DNA of 32,628 bases from a virus: positions 1 to 32,628 of the IMG/VR virus record IMGVR_UViG_3300039210_000132; one strand, given 5' to 3'. Of the stretch, positions 2,630 through 20,597 are shown in pieces. The position numbers and the translations under genes were made by a program. Numbering within the stretch: the stretch's first letter is position 1; every line of letters begins with the position of its first letter. The notes below the pieces were generated by a model. It was not told where the DNA came from, searched no databases, and was given only the letters and a program-made list of their open reading frames with translations.

Positions 2630-3435
2630 TGAGCAATATTGTTAAAATTCAAAACGATAACCCCCTGTTAAAGCCGAATGTTTTAGCGGTGGTAAGGTCT
2701 GAACTGTTTAATGCAGTTAATGCATCGATAGCCAAATGCTATGCAGACTTAAATTTTAAAGTTCCGGAAGATCCTACTTACCTGGTGAACGAGGTAACGG
2801 ATAGCATTTTGAAAAACTATCCTTCCATGCGGCTGCAGGAAATACCGGAAGCTTTTGCAAAAGGTATCCGGGAAGAATATGGTAAATATTTCGGCTTATG
2901 TGTAATATCATTTGAAAAATTCATAGAGGGTTATCTGGCCAGTGAAGACCGTTTGAAGCTGGTTGAACAAAAAAACAGGCTGCTGATCGAAGAAAAAACC
3001 GAACCAACAGCTGAAGATAAATTTATGACTGCAAAGGCCCTTTGCATACAGGCCTATGAAAATGTTAAAGTTAACAGGCCCATAGGTTTAACTGCCTTAA
3101 CTGTTTTCACCTTTCTTAATAATCTGGAAATGATTGATAAGGAGTTTAAAGCCGGCATAATGAAAAACGCGCTTGACCTGGTTATCCAGGATAAGGAACT
3201 TGAAGCCAGCTTTTGTACTGATATAAATCGGCGCCGGATATTAAATGCCGAACTGGAGCTGCTAAGGGATAACATCGCTAAAGACATTATTACCAAAGAG
3301 CAATATGCCGAAGTGGTTAAAACCGCGAAGCGGATCGCCCTTAATAATTATTTAAGAAACCTGATTATGGATGATACAGATCTTGCTGAACTGGTTGAAG
3401 CAAAACGCGAAATATATTTAAGTGGTAATGGATAG
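2629..3435 (+). CDS. Hypothetical protein, partner of the replication protein
   Basis: A 268-residue, largely helical protein with no domain I can name. An IPEAFAKGIREEYGKYFGL segment near residues 78-96 resembles a motif (GxxxEYGxYxGL) that I associate with proteins coded just after Lin1244/Lin1753-type replication proteins in Bacteroidota phages. That link is from memory and unverified. The start ATG shares a base with the preceding TAA, and its stop overlaps the start of a small zinc protein at 3428. A replisome or helicase-loading accessory role is plausible from position only. Confidence 0.65.
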   Translation: MSNIVKIQNDNPLLKPNVLAVVRSELFNAVNASIAKCYADLNFKVPEDPTYLVNEVTDSILKNYPSMRLQEIPEAFAKGIREEYGKYFGLCVISFEKFIEGYLASEDRLKLVEQKNRLLIEEKTEPTAEDKFMTAKALCIQAYENVKVNRPIGLTALTVFTFLNNLEMIDKEFKAGIMKNALDLVIQDKELEASFCTDINRRRILNAELELLRDNIAKDIITKEQYAEVVKTAKRIALNNYLRNLIMDDTDLAELVEAKREIYLSGNG

Positions 3436-3571
3436 TCAAACTGATCAGCTTTTTATATCAACCAAAATAGAATGCGCAAAATGTAAATTTAAAAGGGAGA
3501 AGGAAGTCTTTATGAATAGGCTGAATGATATGATCATCTGTGAAGAATGTGGTTACTACTTTATATTATAA
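3428..3571 (+). CDS. Small zinc-ribbon protein (47 aa)
   Basis: A short open frame begins with ATG 3428, overlapping the upstream stop by 8 nt, and ends with TAA 3571. The product has two CxxC knuckles, CAKC at residues 16-19 and CEEC at 38-41, spaced as in a minimal zinc ribbon. Tiny zinc-ribbon proteins are common in phage early regions; no function can be assigned. The overlap with the upstream gene and the paired cysteines argue that it is real. Confidence 0.6.
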   Translation: MDSQTDQLFISTKIECAKCKFKREKEVFMNRLNDMIICEECGYYFIL

Positions 3572-3613
3572 GGCTTTAAAACCAGTGCAATTAAATACTA
3601 TAAACGTTAAAAT

Positions 3614-3736
3614 ATGAAAGCCTTGGTATTAATTATTTCCGGTTTATGCCTGTTGTCGATAGGATACTTTGTATATGCAATAAAACATGCTATGCCTGAT
3701 CCGGAAGAAGATGATAACAAATTAAAAAACACCTGA
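3614..3736 (+). CDS. Small single-pass membrane protein (40 aa)
   Basis: An open frame of 40 codons starts at ATG 3614. Residues about 3-23 are a continuous hydrophobic helix (LVLIISGLCLLSIGYFVYAI), followed by an acidic tail (PEEDD). The stop TGA overlaps the ATG of the nucleotidyltransferase at 3736, which supports real, coupled translation. The likely place is the inner membrane with the acidic tail on one side; the role is unknown. Confidence 0.5.
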   Translation: MKALVLIISGLCLLSIGYFVYAIKHAMPDPEEDDNKLKNT

Positions 3737-4326
3737 TGGAACTTATAAAAGCTAAAAAAATAGCAACGGCGATATGTTACCAGCTGCTGCCTTATTGCTC
3801 TAAAATTAATATAGCCGGATCAATTCGCAGGAAGAAACCGGAAGTGAAGGATATTGAAATTATCTGCGTTCCGAAAAAAATATTGGCCCAATTTGAAAAT
3901 CTGTTTGAAAGGACGGAAATATCAATAGTTGACCCTGAATTTGCCAAAACTGTATTATCCCTTGGCCAGGTTATAAAAGGGGTTCCGCAAGGCAAGTACA
4001 TGCAACTTGAACTACCGGAGGGCATTAAGCTTGACTTATTCATCCCTGCTGACTTTGACTATTACAGGCAGTTTGCTATCCGTACAGGCAGCGCGGACTA
4101 CTCCGCTAAGATAATAGCTGCCGGCTGGAAGAGAATAGGCTGGTGCGGCGCTGATATTGGATTGAGATTAATAAAGGACTGTACCGAACATAAAGGCCCG
4201 GACGGCAAAACAAAATATAAATGCGAACGCGCTAAAAACAATAGGCCCCCGGTATGGCAGTCTGAAGAAGAGTTCTTTAAATGGATTAAAGTGCCATTTA
4301 TACAACCGGAATTTAGAAATGTATAA
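3736..4326 (+). CDS. DNA polymerase X-like nucleotidyltransferase
   Basis: A 196-residue protein with the polymerase-beta-superfamily signature. It shows AGSIRR (residues 27-32), the first metal-binding pair D39/E41 in KDIEI, a third acidic residue D100 in LDLFIP, and RTGSADYS at 116-123, like the RTGS motif of family X polymerases. It lacks the 8-kDa N-terminal lyase domain and helix-hairpin-helix units of full PolX, so it is close to a stand-alone palm domain. The second carboxylate of the first pair is Glu rather than the usual Asp. It may add nucleotides to DNA or another acceptor; the substrate cannot be read from sequence. It is coupled to the small membrane protein upstream by a one-base overlap. 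Confidence 0.78.
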   Translation: MELIKAKKIATAICYQLLPYCSKINIAGSIRRKKPEVKDIEIICVPKKILAQFENLFERTEISIVDPEFAKTVLSLGQVIKGVPQGKYMQLELPEGIKLDLFIPADFDYYRQFAIRTGSADYSAKIIAAGWKRIGWCGADIGLRLIKDCTEHKGPDGKTKYKCERAKNNRPPVWQSEEEFFKWIKVPFIQPEFRNV

Positions 4327-9047: not shown

Positions 9048-9271
9048 GCAATATCGAATTAATAATAACAGCACTATCAATAGCTTTCTGCTGGATTAAT
9101 ATAATCCAGTGGCCAAAGTTTAAGCCTTTTAACTGCATGATGTGCCTGACCGGGTGGCTGGCATTAGTATTAGCAATACTGACAGGGCATGGAATCTGGA
9201 GTATATTATTTTACCCGGTTGGTTGTTTTGCCGGCGCCATGTTTGAAGCTGTTAAATATAGGTGGCTATGA
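9044..9271 (+). CDS. Small membrane protein (75 aa)
   Basis: Hydrophobic stretches at about residues 5-22, 33-48 and 50-66 suggest two or three membrane helices, with a CMMC motif at 31-34 between the first two. ATG 9044 overlaps the previous stop (ATGA), and its stop overlaps the glycosyltransferase start at 9268. It sits directly before a glycosyltransferase, so it could anchor surface-modification enzymes at the membrane, or be an unrelated packaging-region protein; neither is shown. Confidence 0.6.
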   Translation: MSNIELIITALSIAFCWINIIQWPKFKPFNCMMCLTGWLALVLAILTGHGIWSILFYPVGCFAGAMFEAVKYRWL

Positions 9272-10227
9272 GAATAATCGGACTTGTAAATAAAGATAGC
9301 GGGCCAGGGTTTCACCGGATTATCATGCCGTTGCTACTCATGCCTGATATTGATACCTACATCACCAATTCAATTACTGAAGAAGACTTTGAAAAGGGAT
9401 GCGACGCGGTTTATTATAACCGGATAATCGGCGATGATGTACTAAAGTTAGCCATTAAACACAAGGCTAAGATAATTGTAGACATTGATGATTACTGGCA
9501 CCTGGATCATTATCATATCGCGTTCGACGATTATAAAAATGGCGGGTTTGCTAATTTACAGATCAGGCACATGCAAGTCGCCGACGTGATTACAACTACA
9601 CACGAGCGATTAGCTGAATTAATAAGGCCGTATAACTCAAATGTGATTATTTGCCCGAACGCTATCCCGGATCACGAATATTTCAAGACTGAAAAAAGCG
9701 AGAGTAAGCTGCCCCGCATTTTTTGGCAGGGCAGTATCACGCACGAAAAAGATATAATGCTTTTAAAAAATCCATTTAAAAGGTTAAATAATTGCGCTAC
9801 TATCATAGCCGGGTATACCGATCATCCTGTTTGGAAAAAGATGGTTAACGCCTTTACCAACGGCTTATCACTGCCTGGGATGGTGCTGCCTGGTAAATCA
9901 CCTTTTGAGTATTATTCTAATTACAGCCATGCGGATATATGCATAGCGCCCTTAGTTGCCTCACGCTTTAACGCGCTGAAATCAAACCTAAAAGTATTAG
10001 AAGCCGCTCATTGTTCTTTGCCTATTATCTGCAGCAAGGTTGACCCATATTTGGATTTGCCGGTGTTATATGCCGAGAGCCAAAAAGATTGGTTTAAGCA
10101 TATAAATAACCTTATTCACGACGAGGGTATGCGGAATGAGTTAGGCACAATACTTAACGGTCATTGCAAAATAGAATACAACTTTCAAACGATAAACCAA
10201 AAAAGATATGAAAACTTTAAAGATTAG
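9268..10227 (+). CDS. GT-B fold glycosyltransferase
   Basis: A 319-residue protein from ATG 9268 (ATGA overlap with the upstream stop; the GTG six bases earlier is less likely). It shows the two-domain GT-B layout. An N-terminal Rossmann-like half has IIVDIDDYWHLD (residues 69-80) and ADVITTTHERLAELIRPY. A C-terminal half has IFWQGSITHEKDI, a segment with the nucleotide-sugar site pattern (ADICIAPL...FNALKSNLKVLEAA), and a helical end. This resembles family 1/4-type transferases. Donor and acceptor cannot be read. It opens a carbohydrate-modification group with the TylF-like methyltransferase at 10730 and the GT9-like protein at 11260, placed between the two terminase genes. Confidence 0.75.
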   Translation: MRIIGLVNKDSGPGFHRIIMPLLLMPDIDTYITNSITEEDFEKGCDAVYYNRIIGDDVLKLAIKHKAKIIVDIDDYWHLDHYHIAFDDYKNGGFANLQIRHMQVADVITTTHERLAELIRPYNSNVIICPNAIPDHEYFKTEKSESKLPRIFWQGSITHEKDIMLLKNPFKRLNNCATIIAGYTDHPVWKKMVNAFTNGLSLPGMVLPGKSPFEYYSNYSHADICIAPLVASRFNALKSNLKVLEAAHCSLPIICSKVDPYLDLPVLYAESQKDWFKHINNLIHDEGMRNELGTILNGHCKIEYNFQTINQKRYENFKD

Positions 10228-10408
10228 CTTTCCATTTTCTGATACGCAACCCATCGATGGCCAATTGGCGGATGGCTTTAATATTGAGCAATATAAAGCA
10301 GGTATTGGTCTCATGCCGTCTCAATCATCAATAACATTTTATACCACTAAGGGTGTAATAACTCTCGGCCCGGAAGTATTTAAACAGGCTGTAATAGAAA
10401 TAAGCTAA
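10208..10408 (+). CDS. Hypothetical small protein (66 aa)
   Basis: A beta-rich 66-residue protein with no recognised family. It starts inside the last codons of the glycosyltransferase (20-nt overlap, different frame), and its stop shares a base with the next start. Alternating hydrophobic residues (SITFYTTKGVITLGPEVF) suggest a small beta fold. Membership in the unbroken chain of overlapping genes supports expression. Confidence 0.5.
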   Translation: MKTLKISFPFSDTQPIDGQLADGFNIEQYKAGIGLMPSQSSITFYTTKGVITLGPEVFKQAVIEIS

Positions 10409-10737
10409 TGCTATCACAAGACCAACAAGATTTCTTAGAGCAGAACCGCCCGCATTATGACACGCTGATCAAAGCGGACTTCCTGACTAATTTAGGATAC
10501 CAGGTCAAAGAGGAATTATTAAACACAGCGAGAGTATTCGCCCCTGCCTATCAAGCCAACTTATGGTGCGGGCCATGCGTTTGCGATTTGGTGAAGTTTG
10601 TATATACGCAATATGATAAATGGCTATTGGCGCAACCAAAGGAACTACCTGCAGATGTTCAAAGGGCCACGTTCCCAAAACATGACAAACCTGAAATAGC
10701 AAAAAAGAAACGTAAAAACCCCAATAAAAATGGATAA
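10408..10737 (+). CDS. Hypothetical protein with conserved Cys/Trp motif (109 aa)
   Basis: A helical protein with a central WCGPCVCDLVKFVYTQYDKW segment (about residues 51-70) and a Lys-rich, Pro-rich tail (KPEIAKKKRKNPNKNG). The motif CGPC resembles a thioredoxin active site but the surrounding pattern is helical and short, so thioredoxin activity is not proposed. The layout recalls small packaging-region proteins of Bacteroidota phages. The stop overlaps the methyltransferase start by 8 nt. Confidence 0.55.
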   Translation: MLSQDQQDFLEQNRPHYDTLIKADFLTNLGYQVKEELLNTARVFAPAYQANLWCGPCVCDLVKFVYTQYDKWLLAQPKELPADVQRATFPKHDKPEIAKKKRKNPNKNG

Positions 10738-11263
10738 TACCTTAATCACAAATGACCGGCTGGAAACATTCAAGCGTAATGCGCAATTAATCCCTCCGGG
10801 GTTAATTGCCGAGGTAGGCGTATACAGGGGCGGATCATTAAAGTATTTAGCGGAGTTGTTTCCAGATAGGCAGGTTTGGGGATTTGATACATTTGAGGGG
10901 TTGCCGCCGGAGCATTGGAATAAGGACGAGCGCCATAACCCCGGCGAGTTTTCTGATACCAGCATAGAAGCGGTAAGAGACTTCGTTAATTCAAAAAATG
11001 TTCATTTAATAAAAGGGCTTTTCCCATGGAGTATAGAAAGTACCGGCGGTATTGAAAATATTGCATTGGCGCACATTGACACGGATTTTTACCTGTCAGT
11101 TAAGGCGTGTATCGAATGGTTCGCGCCCCGCATGGTTAAGGGCGGCATGATCGTATTTGACGACTACGGATGGGGCAACTGCCCCGGCGTTAAAAAGGCA
11201 TTGGATGAATCCGGGTTAAAGTTTTGCGTTAGTGCAAACTTCCAAGCATTAGTGGTAATATGA
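10730..11263 (+). CDS. TylF/MycF-like SAM-dependent O-methyltransferase
   Basis: A 177-residue class I methyltransferase. SAM motif I is EVGVYRGGS (residues 28-36), the post-strand acidic residue is D53 in GFDTFEGLP, and the metal-binding acids typical of the TylF (macrocin O-methyltransferase) group are in HIDTDFY (D117, D119) and FDDYG (D144, D145). It is shorter than antibiotic-pathway TylF proteins, as is usual for phage and capsule-locus relatives. The likely substrate is a sugar hydroxyl, consistent with flanking glycosyltransferases; this is inference. It overlaps both neighbours (8 nt and 4 nt). Confidence 0.82.
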   Translation: MDNTLITNDRLETFKRNAQLIPPGLIAEVGVYRGGSLKYLAELFPDRQVWGFDTFEGLPPEHWNKDERHNPGEFSDTSIEAVRDFVNSKNVHLIKGLFPWSIESTGGIENIALAHIDTDFYLSVKACIEWFAPRMVKGGMIVFDDYGWGNCPGVKKALDESGLKFCVSANFQALVVI

Positions 11264-11946
11264 TAATCAGGAACGACAATGATCTGATCGGGGATTTTAT
11301 AGGCACTATCCCGGCAATGCAGGCATTAGGGGCGGATGTAATCATAAGGGAAAGCATGGTGCACCTTTTTAATATGACCGGATTAAAACGCGCTTATATA
11401 AATGAAGATTTGTCTTTTGATTTGCACGCGGCATTTGAACTTGCCAGCCGGGAAAACCTGCACATGATACAGGCTAATTTTGCTTATGCCGATTTACCTG
11501 TTCCGCAGGATATACCAAAGCCGATTTTAAAAATTAACCCCTGCCATGCGCCTGTGTTTGATTTTCTGCTGGCCCCGTTTAGCCGCTCATTACCACCGGA
11601 GCAAAAATGGGATAAATGGCAGGAGCTTGTTGATGCGATGCCCGGCAAGCAGTTTGCTTTGTTAGGCGATCCCGCTATTGACCCTGTTGATTTCATCAAA
11701 GCGCCTAACATTACCCCGCAATTCGGGCACTCCATGGACTACGTTTGCAACCTGCTAAAAAACAGCAAGCATGGTTTAATAAGCGTTGTTACCGGCATAT
11801 CTCACCTGGCGCATGCGCTGGGGGTAACTAATTATTTGTTTTTTAATCAGGGACGCTGGGGGCAAAACCCTGACGCGGTATTATTTGATAAACACATACC
11901 CGATATAGAAGTGGAAGAAGTTGTATTTCGATTATGCCAACAATAA
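11260..11946 (+). CDS. Glycosyltransferase family 9-like (heptosyltransferase-like) protein
   Basis: A 228-residue protein with the GT9 layout in shortened form: GDFIGTIPAMQAL at 11-23, LLAPFSRS at 103-110 followed by KWDKW, LLGDP at 134-138, then TGISHLAHALG at 178-188 (compare the DTGxxHLAAAL motif of heptosyltransferases). The first Asp of that last motif is replaced (VVTG). True heptosyltransferases are about 320-350 residues, so the N-terminal domain is reduced and activity on ADP-heptose should not be assumed. A sugar-binding or transfer role in a surface-modification set is inferred. The large terminase starts 13 bases before its stop. Confidence 0.65.
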   Translation: MIIRNDNDLIGDFIGTIPAMQALGADVIIRESMVHLFNMTGLKRAYINEDLSFDLHAAFELASRENLHMIQANFAYADLPVPQDIPKPILKINPCHAPVFDFLLAPFSRSLPPEQKWDKWQELVDAMPGKQFALLGDPAIDPVDFIKAPNITPQFGHSMDYVCNLLKNSKHGLISVVTGISHLAHALGVTNYLFFNQGRWGQNPDAVLFDKHIPDIEVEEVVFRLCQQ

Positions 11947-13145
11947 ACTATACGCGCCCCTTTCTCTACCCCTACCAGCTTGCTATACTAAACAGCAAAG
12001 CCAGGTTCACCGTAACTATTGCGGCGACTAAGGTTGGAAAGACGGCAAGCCATATCGTTTGGTTATTCGAGCAGGCTTTAAAGTGTAAAGCCAATCAATC
12101 AGTTTGGTGGGTAGCACCGACAATAGGCCAGGCGAAAATCGCATTTGATCGCATGAAAGTGCAGATCAGTAATAAGGACCTGTTTACTGCGAACGAAACG
12201 AATAGGACCATTACGCTCATTACCGGCGCTAAGATGGAATTTAAGACCGCTGAAAAGCCGGATAACCTTTATGGGGGTGACGTTTATGCGGCGGTATATG
12301 ACGAGTACACCAGGGGCCGTGAAGAAAGCTGGCACGCGTTACGCTCAACCCTAACGTCCACCGGGGGCAAATGTAAATTCATAGGGAATGCAAAAGGGAA
12401 AAAGAACTGGGGCTACAAGTTGGCAATAAAGGCAAAGTCAGGCGATGATCCGAACTACGAGTATTTTAAAATAACCGCTTACGACGCGGCAAGCGCCGGA
12501 ATGAAAACTAAGGACGGCAGGCCATTCATTGAAGAGATAGAGGATGCTAAAAAGGATTTGCCAGAAAGCGTGTTTAATGAGCTGTACCTTGCGGAAGCAA
12601 GCGAAGATGGAAGTAATCCTTTTGGTTTACAGTATATAGCTCAATGCACTTATCCGTTATCAGATAAGCCGGCTGTTTGCTTTGGGACTGACCTGGCAAA
12701 GAAGTTCGACTTTACCGTAAATATAGGGCTTGATAAGTTTGCTTATGTATCGCACTTCGATAGGTTTCAAAAGGATTGGCGGCAAACAACCGAAACAATA
12801 TTAGGGCTGCCGGTAGCTCCTTTAGCGATAGACAGCACCGGCGTTGGCGATCCTATTGCGGAAGATATCGCAAGTAAGCGGGATAATGTAACGCTAAAGG
12901 TATTCACCCAACGAAGCAAGCAGCAGTTAATGGAAGGGCTGGCCTATGCTATTCAGCGGCGAGAGATATTCTTCCCGGAAGGAATGATAAGGGAAGAGTT
13001 AGAGGCATTTGAATTTGAGTACACCCGGACAGGGGTAAAGTATTCAGCGCCGGAAGGAACGCATGATGATTGTGTTTGCGCCTTAGCTTTGGCATATAGC
13101 ATTTGGAAAGATAGCGTTAATATGGGCAGTATAAGTATTTGGTAA
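11934..13145 (+). CDS. Terminase large subunit
   Basis: A 403-residue packaging motor. The ATPase half has a Walker A variant AATKVGKT (30-37), an adenine/motor segment VWWVAPT (57-63), a Walker B with catalytic Glu in VYAAVYDE (D123, E124), and a coupling-type motif GNAKGKKNW (151-159). The RNase H-like nuclease half has D253 (GTDLAKKFDF), D300 (AIDSTGVGD) and the HDD at 378-380 (GTHDDCVCALALAY). ATP drives DNA into the prohead, and the nuclease cuts the concatemer. It pairs with the small subunit at 8152. All key residues are present; the gene is complete. Confidence 0.9.
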   Translation: MPTINYTRPFLYPYQLAILNSKARFTVTIAATKVGKTASHIVWLFEQALKCKANQSVWWVAPTIGQAKIAFDRMKVQISNKDLFTANETNRTITLITGAKMEFKTAEKPDNLYGGDVYAAVYDEYTRGREESWHALRSTLTSTGGKCKFIGNAKGKKNWGYKLAIKAKSGDDPNYEYFKITAYDAASAGMKTKDGRPFIEEIEDAKKDLPESVFNELYLAEASEDGSNPFGLQYIAQCTYPLSDKPAVCFGTDLAKKFDFTVNIGLDKFAYVSHFDRFQKDWRQTTETILGLPVAPLAIDSTGVGDPIAEDIASKRDNVTLKVFTQRSKQQLMEGLAYAIQRREIFFPEGMIREELEAFEFEYTRTGVKYSAPEGTHDDCVCALALAYSIWKDSVNMGSISIW

Positions 13146-13183: not shown

Positions 13184-13810
13184 ATGACGTGGGAAAATAT
13201 AACACTCCAGCAATTTCAAGACATTCATAGATTATCCCTTACTGCCAATATCGATGAGATCGAAAAGCTAAGCCGGGTAATATGTATACTTTACAATAAA
13301 ACCGAAGCGCAGGTTGACGAAATGTCAATACTTGGGTTTAATGAACTTGCTAAAGATTGCAAGAAGTTTTTATCAACCGATACCATACCGGGAAAGCCTG
13401 TAAGATCATTTAGGGTAGGTGTAAAAAAGTACGCTATCAACTACCGGCCAACTGAATTGAAGCATCGTCAATACGTTGAGATACTTCACTTCTCCGATAA
13501 GCCGGTTGAGAATATGCACAACATTATGGCTTCGCTTGTAACCCGTGTTAAATGGGGATTTAAGATCAGGAACAAAGCAAGCAATCATGAAGAGATTGCA
13601 AGCGATATGCTCAATGCTCCATTATTCGCCGTTTATCATTCATGTGTTTTTTTTTGCAAACTCTACAGGGATTTAATAGAACATACCCGGGACTTTTTGA
13701 TAAAGGAAATGATGAGCAAGGGGGCGACGAGGAACCAGGCAACGAGACTGCTGACCAATTCAATAAACGCTATGGATGGATTTATTCAACAGAGCAGGTC
13801 GCTCGCTTAG
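13184..13810 (+). CDS. Tail-assembly-chaperone-like protein (zero-frame product)
   Basis: A 208-residue protein. The N-terminus (MTWENITLQQFQDIHRL) and the following helical domain recall the protein coded after the large terminase in many Bacteroidota phages; a small beta region (FRVGVKKYAINYRP) lies near residues 76-89. A run of nine T (13647-13655) is read here as V-F-F-C. The frame continues 51 residues beyond it as a sensible helical sequence (KLYRDLIEHTRDFLIKEMMS...). A second open frame, -1 relative to this one, starts at the T run and extends to 13929. This G/GT-like layout suggests that this product is the short chaperone. The chaperone call is inference from layout. Confidence 0.62.
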   Translation: MTWENITLQQFQDIHRLSLTANIDEIEKLSRVICILYNKTEAQVDEMSILGFNELAKDCKKFLSTDTIPGKPVRSFRVGVKKYAINYRPTELKHRQYVEILHFSDKPVENMHNIMASLVTRVKWGFKIRNKASNHEEIASDMLNAPLFAVYHSCVFFCKLYRDLIEHTRDFLIKEMMSKGATRNQATRLLTNSINAMDGFIQQSRSLA

Positions 13811-13929
13811 AAGACATTCCCCTTGATCTGGCATACGAATTACCGGTTGTACAGGTATTGAATGATCTTAGTTATTTAAAGGCAAAGGCTGAACATGAGA
13901 AGCGGTTGCTGAAAGAATGGAGTAAATAA
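13642..13929 (+). CDS. Second-frame extension (GT-like), by -1 frameshift or own start
   Basis: This -1 frame is open from 13591 and codes for about 90 residues after the T9 run: a Gly/Glu-rich linker, then RYGWIYSTEQVARLEDIPLD and LPVVQVLNDLSYLKAKAEHE, which reads as a folded helical domain. In the zero frame the codons at the run are TTT TTT preceded by T (13648-13654), a T TTT TTT heptamer that fits the X XXY YYZ rule. A -1 shift would give a fusion of about 248 residues. The alternative is independent initiation at ATG 13642, immediately before the run. Both frames look protein-like between 13656 and 13810. A miscounted homopolymer in the assembly is a third possibility. Confidence 0.6.
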   Translation: MCFFLQTLQGFNRTYPGLFDKGNDEQGGDEEPGNETADQFNKRYGWIYSTEQVARLEDIPLDLAYELPVVQVLNDLSYLKAKAEHEKRLLKEWSK

Positions 13930-13930
13930 A

Positions 13931-14149
13931 TCAAATATCAATTATTCCTAAAGCGATCAATTGATGCTGAATAGTGTTCTCCTGTACTGTATTCAGTGGC
14001 GAACCGCAAATGGGGCATTTTAGCTTGCCGTACACATAATCTTTTATTTTCACCTCAATGGTTGCGCATTGTGTTATCTCTATGCAGTCATACCGGGGGC
14101 AGCTTAATTGGATTATATCATTGTCTATATTATACCTCTTTGGCGACAT
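13931..14149 (-). CDS. Reverse-strand small zinc-binding protein (72 aa)
   Basis: A 72-residue protein on the opposite strand to its neighbours, filling the gap between two tail genes almost exactly (it ends one base after the forward gene's stop). Cysteines at 17, 22, 28, 45 and 48 (CPRYDC and CPICG) form a zinc-ribbon-like arrangement, followed by a helical end. No family is recognised. Its placement, orientation and separate control are those of a phage extra gene (moron). The forward leader of the next gene lies just beyond its start. Confidence 0.6.
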   Translation of the reverse strand: MSPKRYNIDNDIIQLSCPRYDCIEITQCATIEVKIKDYVYGKLKCPICGSPLNTVQENTIQHQLIALGIIDI

Positions 14150-18446: not shown

Positions 18447-20597
18447 ATGTCAAACACCGTAATAGCCGCGTCGTTAACCTTAGATGCCGAACAAGCGTCA
18501 ACAAGCGTTAAGTCCTTTAAGCAACAATTAAGGGAAGCCCAAAATGAACTGATAGGGATACAGGAGCAATTCGGCGAAACAAGCACACAGGCTATCGCGG
18601 CGGCGAAAGGGGTTGGCGATCTGAAGGCTAAGATAAAAGACGCTAAAGAAGTAGCGGACTTGTTTAATCCGGAAAAAAAGTTTCAAGCCTTCGGCAATGC
18701 TGTTCGAGCATCCGTTGGCGGTATAACTGCGTTAACCGGGGCTATGGCCTTATTTGGCGGCCAGAGTGAAGAGGTTCAGGCGGCCATATTAAAAGTGCAG
18801 GGAGCATTGGCATTAACTGAAGGCGTAAATACATTGGCCGATGCCGCGAAAGATTTCACGAGGCTAAAAGTAGTCGCTATGGATGCGTTTAATGGTATCA
18901 AAGCAGCGATAGGAAGTACAGGCATAGGGTTATTTGTTATCGCGTTGGGGGTTATCGTCGCTTATTGGGGCGACATAAAGAACGCGGTAGGGCTTGCAAG
19001 CAGGGCGCAGGAAAAGAATTTGGAAACAGCTACTAAAGCATTCGAAGTAGAAAAAAGCAAACTTGATATATTGCAATCGCAGGATAACTTACTGAAACAG
19101 CAGGGAGTTTCGGAGCAAGAAATACTGGATATAAAAAACAAACAGCTCGAAGCGTCCATTAAGGCAGCGATCAAGCAATTGGAAGCCCAAAAGGTTTTAA
19201 CTGACCAGGCTACGCAAGCGTCCATTAAATGGAAAGCGACCCTTGCTGCTGGGTTCGGGGGCTTAGGTAGTTTCTTCCATCCCGAAAAAGTTAAGGCGGA
19301 GGGCGATCAAACCAACAAGGCGTTGGAATTGGAAATTAAAAAACTACAAGACCAACTGGCAGGCAACCAAATGGCTGTAATTGCCACTACAAATGCGTTT
19401 AATCAAAAGGTTTTAGGCTTAAACCACGACGCTGCGGTCGCCGGGATAACAGATGCCTATAAACTTTCGCAGATAAAACTGAAGAATGATTTCGAGGCGC
19501 AAAAGGCGCAGATAACGCAGGAGTACACTAATGTTCAGCAACGCAATGAGCTGATCGGCGCGGCCCAGCGAAAGTATGAAGCCGAAGCATCGGCATTGAG
19601 CAAGGCAAACGCCAGGACACGGGCCGCTGATTTGCGGAAAATACTATTTGATACCTATACCGCCAATATTCAGGATCAGGAGGTACTGGCGAAACTGCAA
19701 TTAAAATACCAGCTGGATATAGACCTCGAGGCGGCCGATTATGAAATAGCCAACCTTACCGCGAGGAACAAAAAGAAAGCCGCTTTAACCAAAGAGTATG
19801 ATGAAAAGATTAATACTATCCGGGCAAAGGGCCTACTCGACTTTCAAACAAAATGGACGGAATCAATTGCTAAAAGAGATGCGGCGGATTCCAAAATGCA
19901 AACAGATGAGTTAAATGAGAAGCTTGACAAAGAAAAAGAACTAAACTATCAATCATTAAAACTGGATGAAGAAATAGGGAACATGCGCTTAGACCAGGCG
20001 GGCCAAAAAGCGGCTGCATCGATGGAGCAATTGCATGAATGGTATGATAAGAAAATGGCGCTTGTGAAAGGCAACGCAAAAGCCGAGGCTCAATTATTTG
20101 CAGAATATGAACGGCAAAAAACTTTAATTGCCAAATTAGAGCAAGAGGAGCGAATGGCAACTATTTCAAGTAGTTTGGGCCAAGCGGCTGATCTATTTGG
20201 AAGGGCGACAGCGGCTGGCAAAGTGTTAGCGATAGCTTCAGCCACAATAGACACTTATCTTTCGGCGCAAAAAGCATATACCTCCTTAGCTGGTATTCCG
20301 TTTATAGGGCCAACAATAGCGCCAATTGCAGCGGGAATTGCGATTCTTAGCGGCCTTGCTAATATTAAAAAAATTGTATCCGTTCAAGTACCAGGTGGTG
20401 GTGGGTCTTCGCCATCTGGAATATCGGTTCCGGCTCCGTTAACGCCACGCCCACAAGTCAGCAACACCCAATTACCACAAAATCAAATTAATCAAATTGG
20501 CAATGCGACGGTTCGGGCATTTGTCATAGAATCGGATGTAACAAATAGCCAGGAAAGGATTACGCGCTTAAACAGGGCAGCGCGGTTAGGCGGCTAA
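18447..20597 (+). CDS. Tape measure protein
   Basis: A 716-residue protein of Ala/Lys/Glu-rich coiled coils (about 25-85, 190-260, 290-330, 350-590). It has hydrophobic helices at about 155-177 (GIGLFVIALGVIVAYWGD) and 600-650 (IPFIGPTIAPIAAGIAILSG), as expected of tape measures. A Gly/Pro-rich linker leads to a C-terminal motif, FVIESDVTNSQERITRLNRA, characteristic of tape measures in Bacteroidota phages. At about 1.5 angstrom per residue, the tail would be near 107 nm, which is a scaling rule, not a measurement. The stop overlaps the end of the reverse-strand DUF4468 gene by 4 bases. Confidence 0.8.
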   Translation: MSNTVIAASLTLDAEQASTSVKSFKQQLREAQNELIGIQEQFGETSTQAIAAAKGVGDLKAKIKDAKEVADLFNPEKKFQAFGNAVRASVGGITALTGAMALFGGQSEEVQAAILKVQGALALTEGVNTLADAAKDFTRLKVVAMDAFNGIKAAIGSTGIGLFVIALGVIVAYWGDIKNAVGLASRAQEKNLETATKAFEVEKSKLDILQSQDNLLKQQGVSEQEILDIKNKQLEASIKAAIKQLEAQKVLTDQATQASIKWKATLAAGFGGLGSFFHPEKVKAEGDQTNKALELEIKKLQDQLAGNQMAVIATTNAFNQKVLGLNHDAAVAGITDAYKLSQIKLKNDFEAQKAQITQEYTNVQQRNELIGAAQRKYEAEASALSKANARTRAADLRKILFDTYTANIQDQEVLAKLQLKYQLDIDLEAADYEIANLTARNKKKAALTKEYDEKINTIRAKGLLDFQTKWTESIAKRDAADSKMQTDELNEKLDKEKELNYQSLKLDEEIGNMRLDQAGQKAAASMEQLHEWYDKKMALVKGNAKAEAQLFAEYERQKTLIAKLEQEERMATISSSLGQAADLFGRATAAGKVLAIASATIDTYLSAQKAYTSLAGIPFIGPTIAPIAAGIAILSGLANIKKIVSVQVPGGGGSSPSGISVPAPLTPRPQVSNTQLPQNQINQIGNATVRAFVIESDVTNSQERITRLNRAARLGG

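Follow-up and report, generated by a model that had tools for sequence, protein, structure and literature searches.

When a run of nine T lies where two reading frames of a phage gene overlap, the question arises whether expression changes frame at the run to give both a short and an extended protein, and whether such a change would occur during transcription or translation. We addressed this in virus record IMGVR_UViG_3300039210_000132, using a stretch of 32,628 nucleotides (hereafter, the window). A sequence-only reading of the window had proposed that the run joins the two frames of a tail-chaperone-like gene comparable to lambda G/GT by a ribosomal −1 slip on T TTT TTT, that the bases following the run code in both frames, and that an assembly miscount at the run could mimic this picture. 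The features concerned are listed in Table 1.

Table 1. Features of the locus in the window, with the evidence on which each is based.
Feature	Position	Strand	Evidence
Terminase large subunit, directly 5' of the gene	11934..13145	+	PHROG phrog_2, E 2.7e-27
Zero-frame ORF, G-like short product, 208 aa	13184..13810	+	AlphaFold2 pLDDT 93; homologues
T9 run, frame-change site	13647..13655	+	9 or 10 T in 227/227 distinct regions
T_TTT_TTT heptamer within T9	13648..13654	+	Sequence
−1 frame T-like domain, 91 codons + stop	13654..13929	+	Homologues, continuous L068, model pLDDT 79
Overlap open/coding in both frames, 155 nt	13656..13810	+	Codon-position substitution profile, synonymous resampling
Tape measure protein, three genes 3' of the gene	18447..20597	+	PHROG phrog_24676, E 2.5e-7

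In the window, the zero frame crosses the run as GTT TTT TTT TGC, and the −1 frame, read as an ORF, runs open between 13591 and its stop at 13929. Residues 1–157 of the zero-frame product are common to it and to the predicted fusion. The run is the only T9 on the plus strand of the window, alongside a single T8 and a single A9; in the genomes of T9-bearing phages, runs at other places were too few to show whether T9 is depleted there. The window is identical to parts of a circularly permuted 46,963-base contig (DHIR01000113.1, binned as Mucilaginibacter sp. UBA4741), in which the T count is equal; this is a separate assembly, although its reads are possibly shared with those of the window. The genome to which the window belongs measures ~47 kb, of which ~14.3 kb (C19:16860-31194) are absent from the window.

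To place the run in an evolutionary context, we collected a homologue set of ~300 loci; the queries were the zero-frame protein and the −1 domain, each also in the form of alignments, together with divergent members. The peptide patterns used in the search were back-translated with degenerate codons and lay mostly outside the run, so the search did not select for T9 as DNA. A run of 9 or 10 T was present at the homologous site in 306 of the 307 matched loci, showing that the T9 in the window is not a chance occurrence. Among 227 distinct homologous regions, extending down to ~20% identity, 222 have T9, five have T10 and none has a shorter run, and the T10 cases that were examined have arisen by in-frame substitution. 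A cultured representative, Nonlabens phage P12024L, carries C-T9-A at the homologous site, with its two frames annotated separately as genes 40 and 41. Searching cultured phages with the window protein (tblastn) gave no true match, and these relatives were reached only via divergent members of the set. Across homologues, the zero-frame tail after the run ranges from 47 to 265 nt, so that up to ~88 codons are read in two frames.

Both frames are under constraint in this overlap. The largest group supplied 77 sequences, from which 942 matched pairs were compared for substitutions, scored by zero-frame codon position. The rates per site at positions 1, 2 and 3 were.060,.045 and.286 on the 5' side of the run,.090,.131 and.128 in the overlap, and.025,.220 and.023 past the zero-frame stop, with non-overlapping bootstrap intervals for the contrasted codon positions. 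This profile marks a passage from coding in a single frame to coding in both, and then in the second frame only. When either frame was resampled synonymously, the other seldom stayed open over the length seen in the real sequences (median p.006 and.0035). In the window by itself, the zero-frame tail does not exceed the length to be expected from the −1 protein (resampling p 0.54); the constraint on the tail becomes visible across homologues. The AlphaFold2 model of the zero-frame protein has a mean pLDDT of 93 that includes the helices encoded past the run, and the T domain model is less certain. The joining of two frames at the T9, and the dual coding of 13656–13810 that the sequence-only reading had suggested, are hence borne out by several hundred homologues, and its concern that the zero frame might be unconserved past the run is answered.

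An independent view of the predicted fusion comes from relatives that encode it directly. The only retrieved homologue lacking a T run (L068; IMGVR_UViG_3300004461_002080, 3083-3757) is one continuous fusion ORF of 225 aa, to which the predicted window fusion aligns over 243 columns at 34% identity (E 2e-37), without a gap at the junction. The overlapping zero-frame tail is lost in L068, where the other frame closes soon past the junction; judged from its sequence, this locus would represent a natural loss, or an ancestral absence, of recoding. No close relative of L068 was present in the viral contigs searched. Fusion-length proteins of Duneviridae (Flavobacterium phages 2A and laban6-1, Cellulophaga phage Ingeline; phrog_25418) and of Bacteroides phage BT-TP2 also align through the same point, but differ from the window gene in being encoded in one continuous frame without a T run. 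The N-terminal part of the Flavobacterium phage 6H protein gave a profile match to the gene family (E 1.9e-5). By itself, the T domain gave no significant profile match to the phage 2A protein (E 0.2), and the relation to that protein is thus drawn from the whole-length alignment together with the N-terminal match. The phage 6H record (KC959568, L310) has an apparent one-base frame error at ~10380 relative to phage 2A, as a result of which the homologous protein is annotated as truncated, 191 versus 293 aa. Another protein of fusion length, the 243-aa BFVD entry A0A6J7WJY4 from an uncultured phage, matches both the G-like and the T-like models and is possibly a further single-frame fusion, either natural or miscounted.

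These comparisons bear on three explanations that would dispense with recoding. A homopolymer miscount during sequencing or assembly of a truly continuous gene would agree with the single frames of L068 and the distant relatives, but those genes are entirely without a T run, the same count recurs in hundreds of contigs, in cultured P12024L and in the second assembly, and both frames are constrained; none of the 227 distinct regions has a run of seven or eight T. The comparative data therefore contradict a miscount, to which we attach next to no probability. Replication slippage at the T9 might instead generate a mixture of genomes with fused and unfused genes, given that homopolymers mutate easily and that one partial contig (L017) does contain a true inserted T in the run. 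Against such phase variation, the DNA run is nine in all but the five T10 regions, where the frame is kept by substitution, and the constraint on the zero-frame tail indicates that both products are needed, making this a very improbable account. Finally, the T-like ORF could be a separate gene with its own start and no fusion, as the ATG at 13642 in the window and the separate annotation of the two P12024L frames might suggest; however, the −1 frame around the run contains no ATG at all in 55 of 56 representatives, it opens only 5 nt before the run in eight of them, the conserved −1 sequence begins at the run, and L068 and the Duneviridae relatives encode the fusion in one frame, so that a separate start is effectively contradicted and highly unlikely.

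We next consider what the gene encodes. It yields a short protein and, through a conserved −1 frame change, a C-terminally extended form, and it lies in the tail block upstream of the tape measure gene; in both respects, and in having a helical short protein, it is like lambda G/GT (PMC5009743); in the model, the zero-frame protein is also compact. This likeness is one of arrangement, without significant sequence similarity, and it holds across several hundred homologues; we infer a G/GT-type organisation on this basis, as distinct from family membership by sequence. The direct adjacency to the tape measure gene that is typical of lambda is absent in the window, where three genes intervene, and the related gene of Cellulophaga phage Ingeline lies two genes before the tape measure gene. 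A terminase match was obtained in 202 of the 213 loci with enough sequence, and in 122 of these 202 the terminase is directly adjacent upstream, the distances being rough extrapolations. The sequence-only reading had found three points unusual, namely the homopolymer, the length of the overlap and the position after terminase; they are indeed so in comparison with lambda, but they are the rule in this Bacteroidota phage family, in which a position right after terminase is usual.

Pfam and PHROG scans of the window proteins returned nothing for this gene. Searches of the PDB by sequence and by fold yielded no match above chance level, and no characterised fold relative was found. Weak matches to chaperone families were found for one member each (phrog_18582, E 0.003; PF10109, Phage_TAC_7, E 0.08), and a BFVD match to an annotated tail assembly chaperone had E 0.3. 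A library family that has neither an assigned function nor a frameshift annotation, phrog_32199, is matched by 37 of 55 family members (best E 1.8e-115), and by the window protein only at E 0.067. The protein pair could be another tail or connector component, which would be compatible with either mechanism of frame change and would fit the lack of a confident match to a solved structure or characterised family and the distance from the tape measure gene in the window. Against this speak the short and extended pair with its −1 frame change, its location 5' of the tape measure gene, the weak chaperone-family matches and the place of the Ingeline gene, and we regard such an identity as unlikely. 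From architecture, synteny and the weak profile matches, the best reading is that the gene is quite probably a G/GT-type tail assembly chaperone gene.

Programmed ribosomal frameshifting has a textbook example in lambda G/GT, and a survey by Xu, Hendrix and Duda (2004) reportedly describes conserved frameshifts in tail genes. The T9 run would also suit slippage by RNA polymerase. Slippage at nine A or T is known from Shigella mxiE, Thermus dnaX and IS elements, and insertion of a single U in mxiE fuses two overlapping ORFs, giving the longer product (PMC1088944, PMC5009743). Nine A or T is a length that many bacteria avoid, that matches the RNA:DNA hybrid, and at which single-base insertion prevails (PMC1088944, PMC5009743, PMC5574713). 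The junction here carries at least nine T throughout the runs examined, and one inserted U yields exactly the −1 frame.

We used a tree of 211 sequences, with the count restricted to phase 1 rows, to map substitutions in and around the run. None of the nine T positions changed. By comparison, each third position in the 14 codons on the 5' side of the run changed 9–53 times, the base that precedes the run 11 times, and the two that follow it 10 and 11 times. At least 15 exchanges among Tyr, Trp, Cys and Leu occurred in the codon that closes the run, which stayed T-first throughout. Moreover, a run of 9–10 T is kept in three codon phases, its length being maintained irrespective of phase: phase 2 is represented by a marine clade of 11 sequences plus one T10, with 1 to 3 origins on the tree, and phase 0 by one T10. 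The shift in phase is seen in a comparison of AGT GTT TTT TTT TGG AGT with AGT TTT TTT TTG TCG AGT, in which codon number is equal. Since the invariant block comprises nine T and a slippery heptamer needs seven, the pattern fits transcriptional slippage somewhat better. Part of it may, however, have another origin: the codon at which the run begins (codon 0) is always hydrophobic, with T as its second base, and the base that opens the closing codon doubles as the second base of a Leu or Phe codon in the −1 frame, so that selection on the two frames' proteins may be what keeps the two outer Ts. Transcriptional slippage is for this reason a lean and not proof.

The competing account keeps the G/GT arrangement and places the frame change at the ribosome, by tandem −1 slippage on T_TTT_TTT. 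Were this so, the heptamer at 13648–13654 is the sole possible site in the window. A usable T_TTT_TTT occurs in every sequence with the run. Ribosomal slippage is the established mechanism of lambda G/GT and is conserved widely among tailed phages (PMC5009743); U_UUU_UUU is also a shift-prone motif in E. coli (PMC4066793). Seven T would nevertheless suffice, yet 0 of 227 regions fall below nine, and T9/T10 is the only site seen in this family, without any other heptamer, unlike the varied heptamers of lambda G/GT-type genes. The last heptamer base is never C, whereas 33% of upstream Phe codons end in C and U_UUU_UUC is an efficient frameshift site in E. coli (PMC4066793). Neither a folding signal for conserved RNA structure up- or downstream of the run (56 representatives, pseudoknot-free folding) nor SD-like matches above control near it were detected, and the +1 frame closes past the run only slightly quicker than control, a difference on which we place no weight. 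Phage frameshift sites commonly lack RNA structure, and stimulators of either kind are frequent but not required. On balance, the sequence pattern leads us to favour slippage by RNA polymerase with some confidence, and ribosomal frameshifting stands as a serious but less probable alternative.

The following scheme would account for these observations. Plain expression would produce the 208-aa G-like protein, while in a fraction of expression events a move to the −1 frame inside the T9 would give a 248-aa fusion of residues 1–157 with the 91-aa T-like domain, the overlap encoding the last part of G together with the first part of T. RNA polymerase would reiterate in the nine-T run, leaving some mRNAs with ten U, in which ordinary translation joins the frames. 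By analogy with lambda, both products may act in a set ratio as tail assembly chaperones; the G part would attach to the tape measure protein, and the T part would bring in the tail tube subunit. The recoding site, the fusion and the constraint on both frames are established here by sequence comparison, whereas the chaperone role, the transcriptional level and the product ratio are what we infer from it. Taking identity and level together, a G/GT-type gene of a Bacteroidota tailed-phage family whose frame change most likely takes place in transcription is a reading we hold as somewhat better than even; the fuller proposal, that the family sets its chaperone ratio by RNA polymerase slippage at an invariant T9 with up to ~88 dual codons, we put barely above an even chance.

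Recoded tail chaperone genes and slippage at nine T in bacteria are both already known. The gene resembles the mxiE, dnaX and IS cases in having nine T or A at a frame junction, and differs from these bacterial or IS genes in being a phage morphogenesis gene with long dual coding, for which transcriptional slippage is proposed from sequence patterns. Our literature search turned up no tail assembly chaperone gene reported to undergo transcriptional slippage, and T9 slippage in such a gene with a jointly constrained overlap of up to 265 bases was not found described; the subscription literature lay mostly outside the coverage of the search, so this absence is not proof of novelty. If the proposal is true, the same decision would have moved from the ribosome to RNA polymerase, with the product ratio settable at either level. 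In dnaX, too, the ratio of products can be set at the level of the ribosome or of RNA polymerase. For annotation, a T9 in the gene after terminase of Bacteroidota phages would serve as a rule for loci now recorded as one or two hypothetical proteins, and the many sequences of the family form a large natural collection for following how two overlapping protein domains evolve when constrained jointly. The cultured Nonlabens phages make the mechanism directly testable.

Other features of the window were recorded alongside the locus. Directly after the T-like ORF, a small minus-strand ORF (13931-14149) has a four-cysteine, zinc-ribbon-like spacing (CPRYDC...CPICG). Directly 5' of terminase (9262-11946), translations give the impression of two glycosyltransferase-like ORFs and one methyltransferase-like ORF, and the ORF at 1751-2629 encodes a protein with short KEKES repeats, located at 2078-2320.
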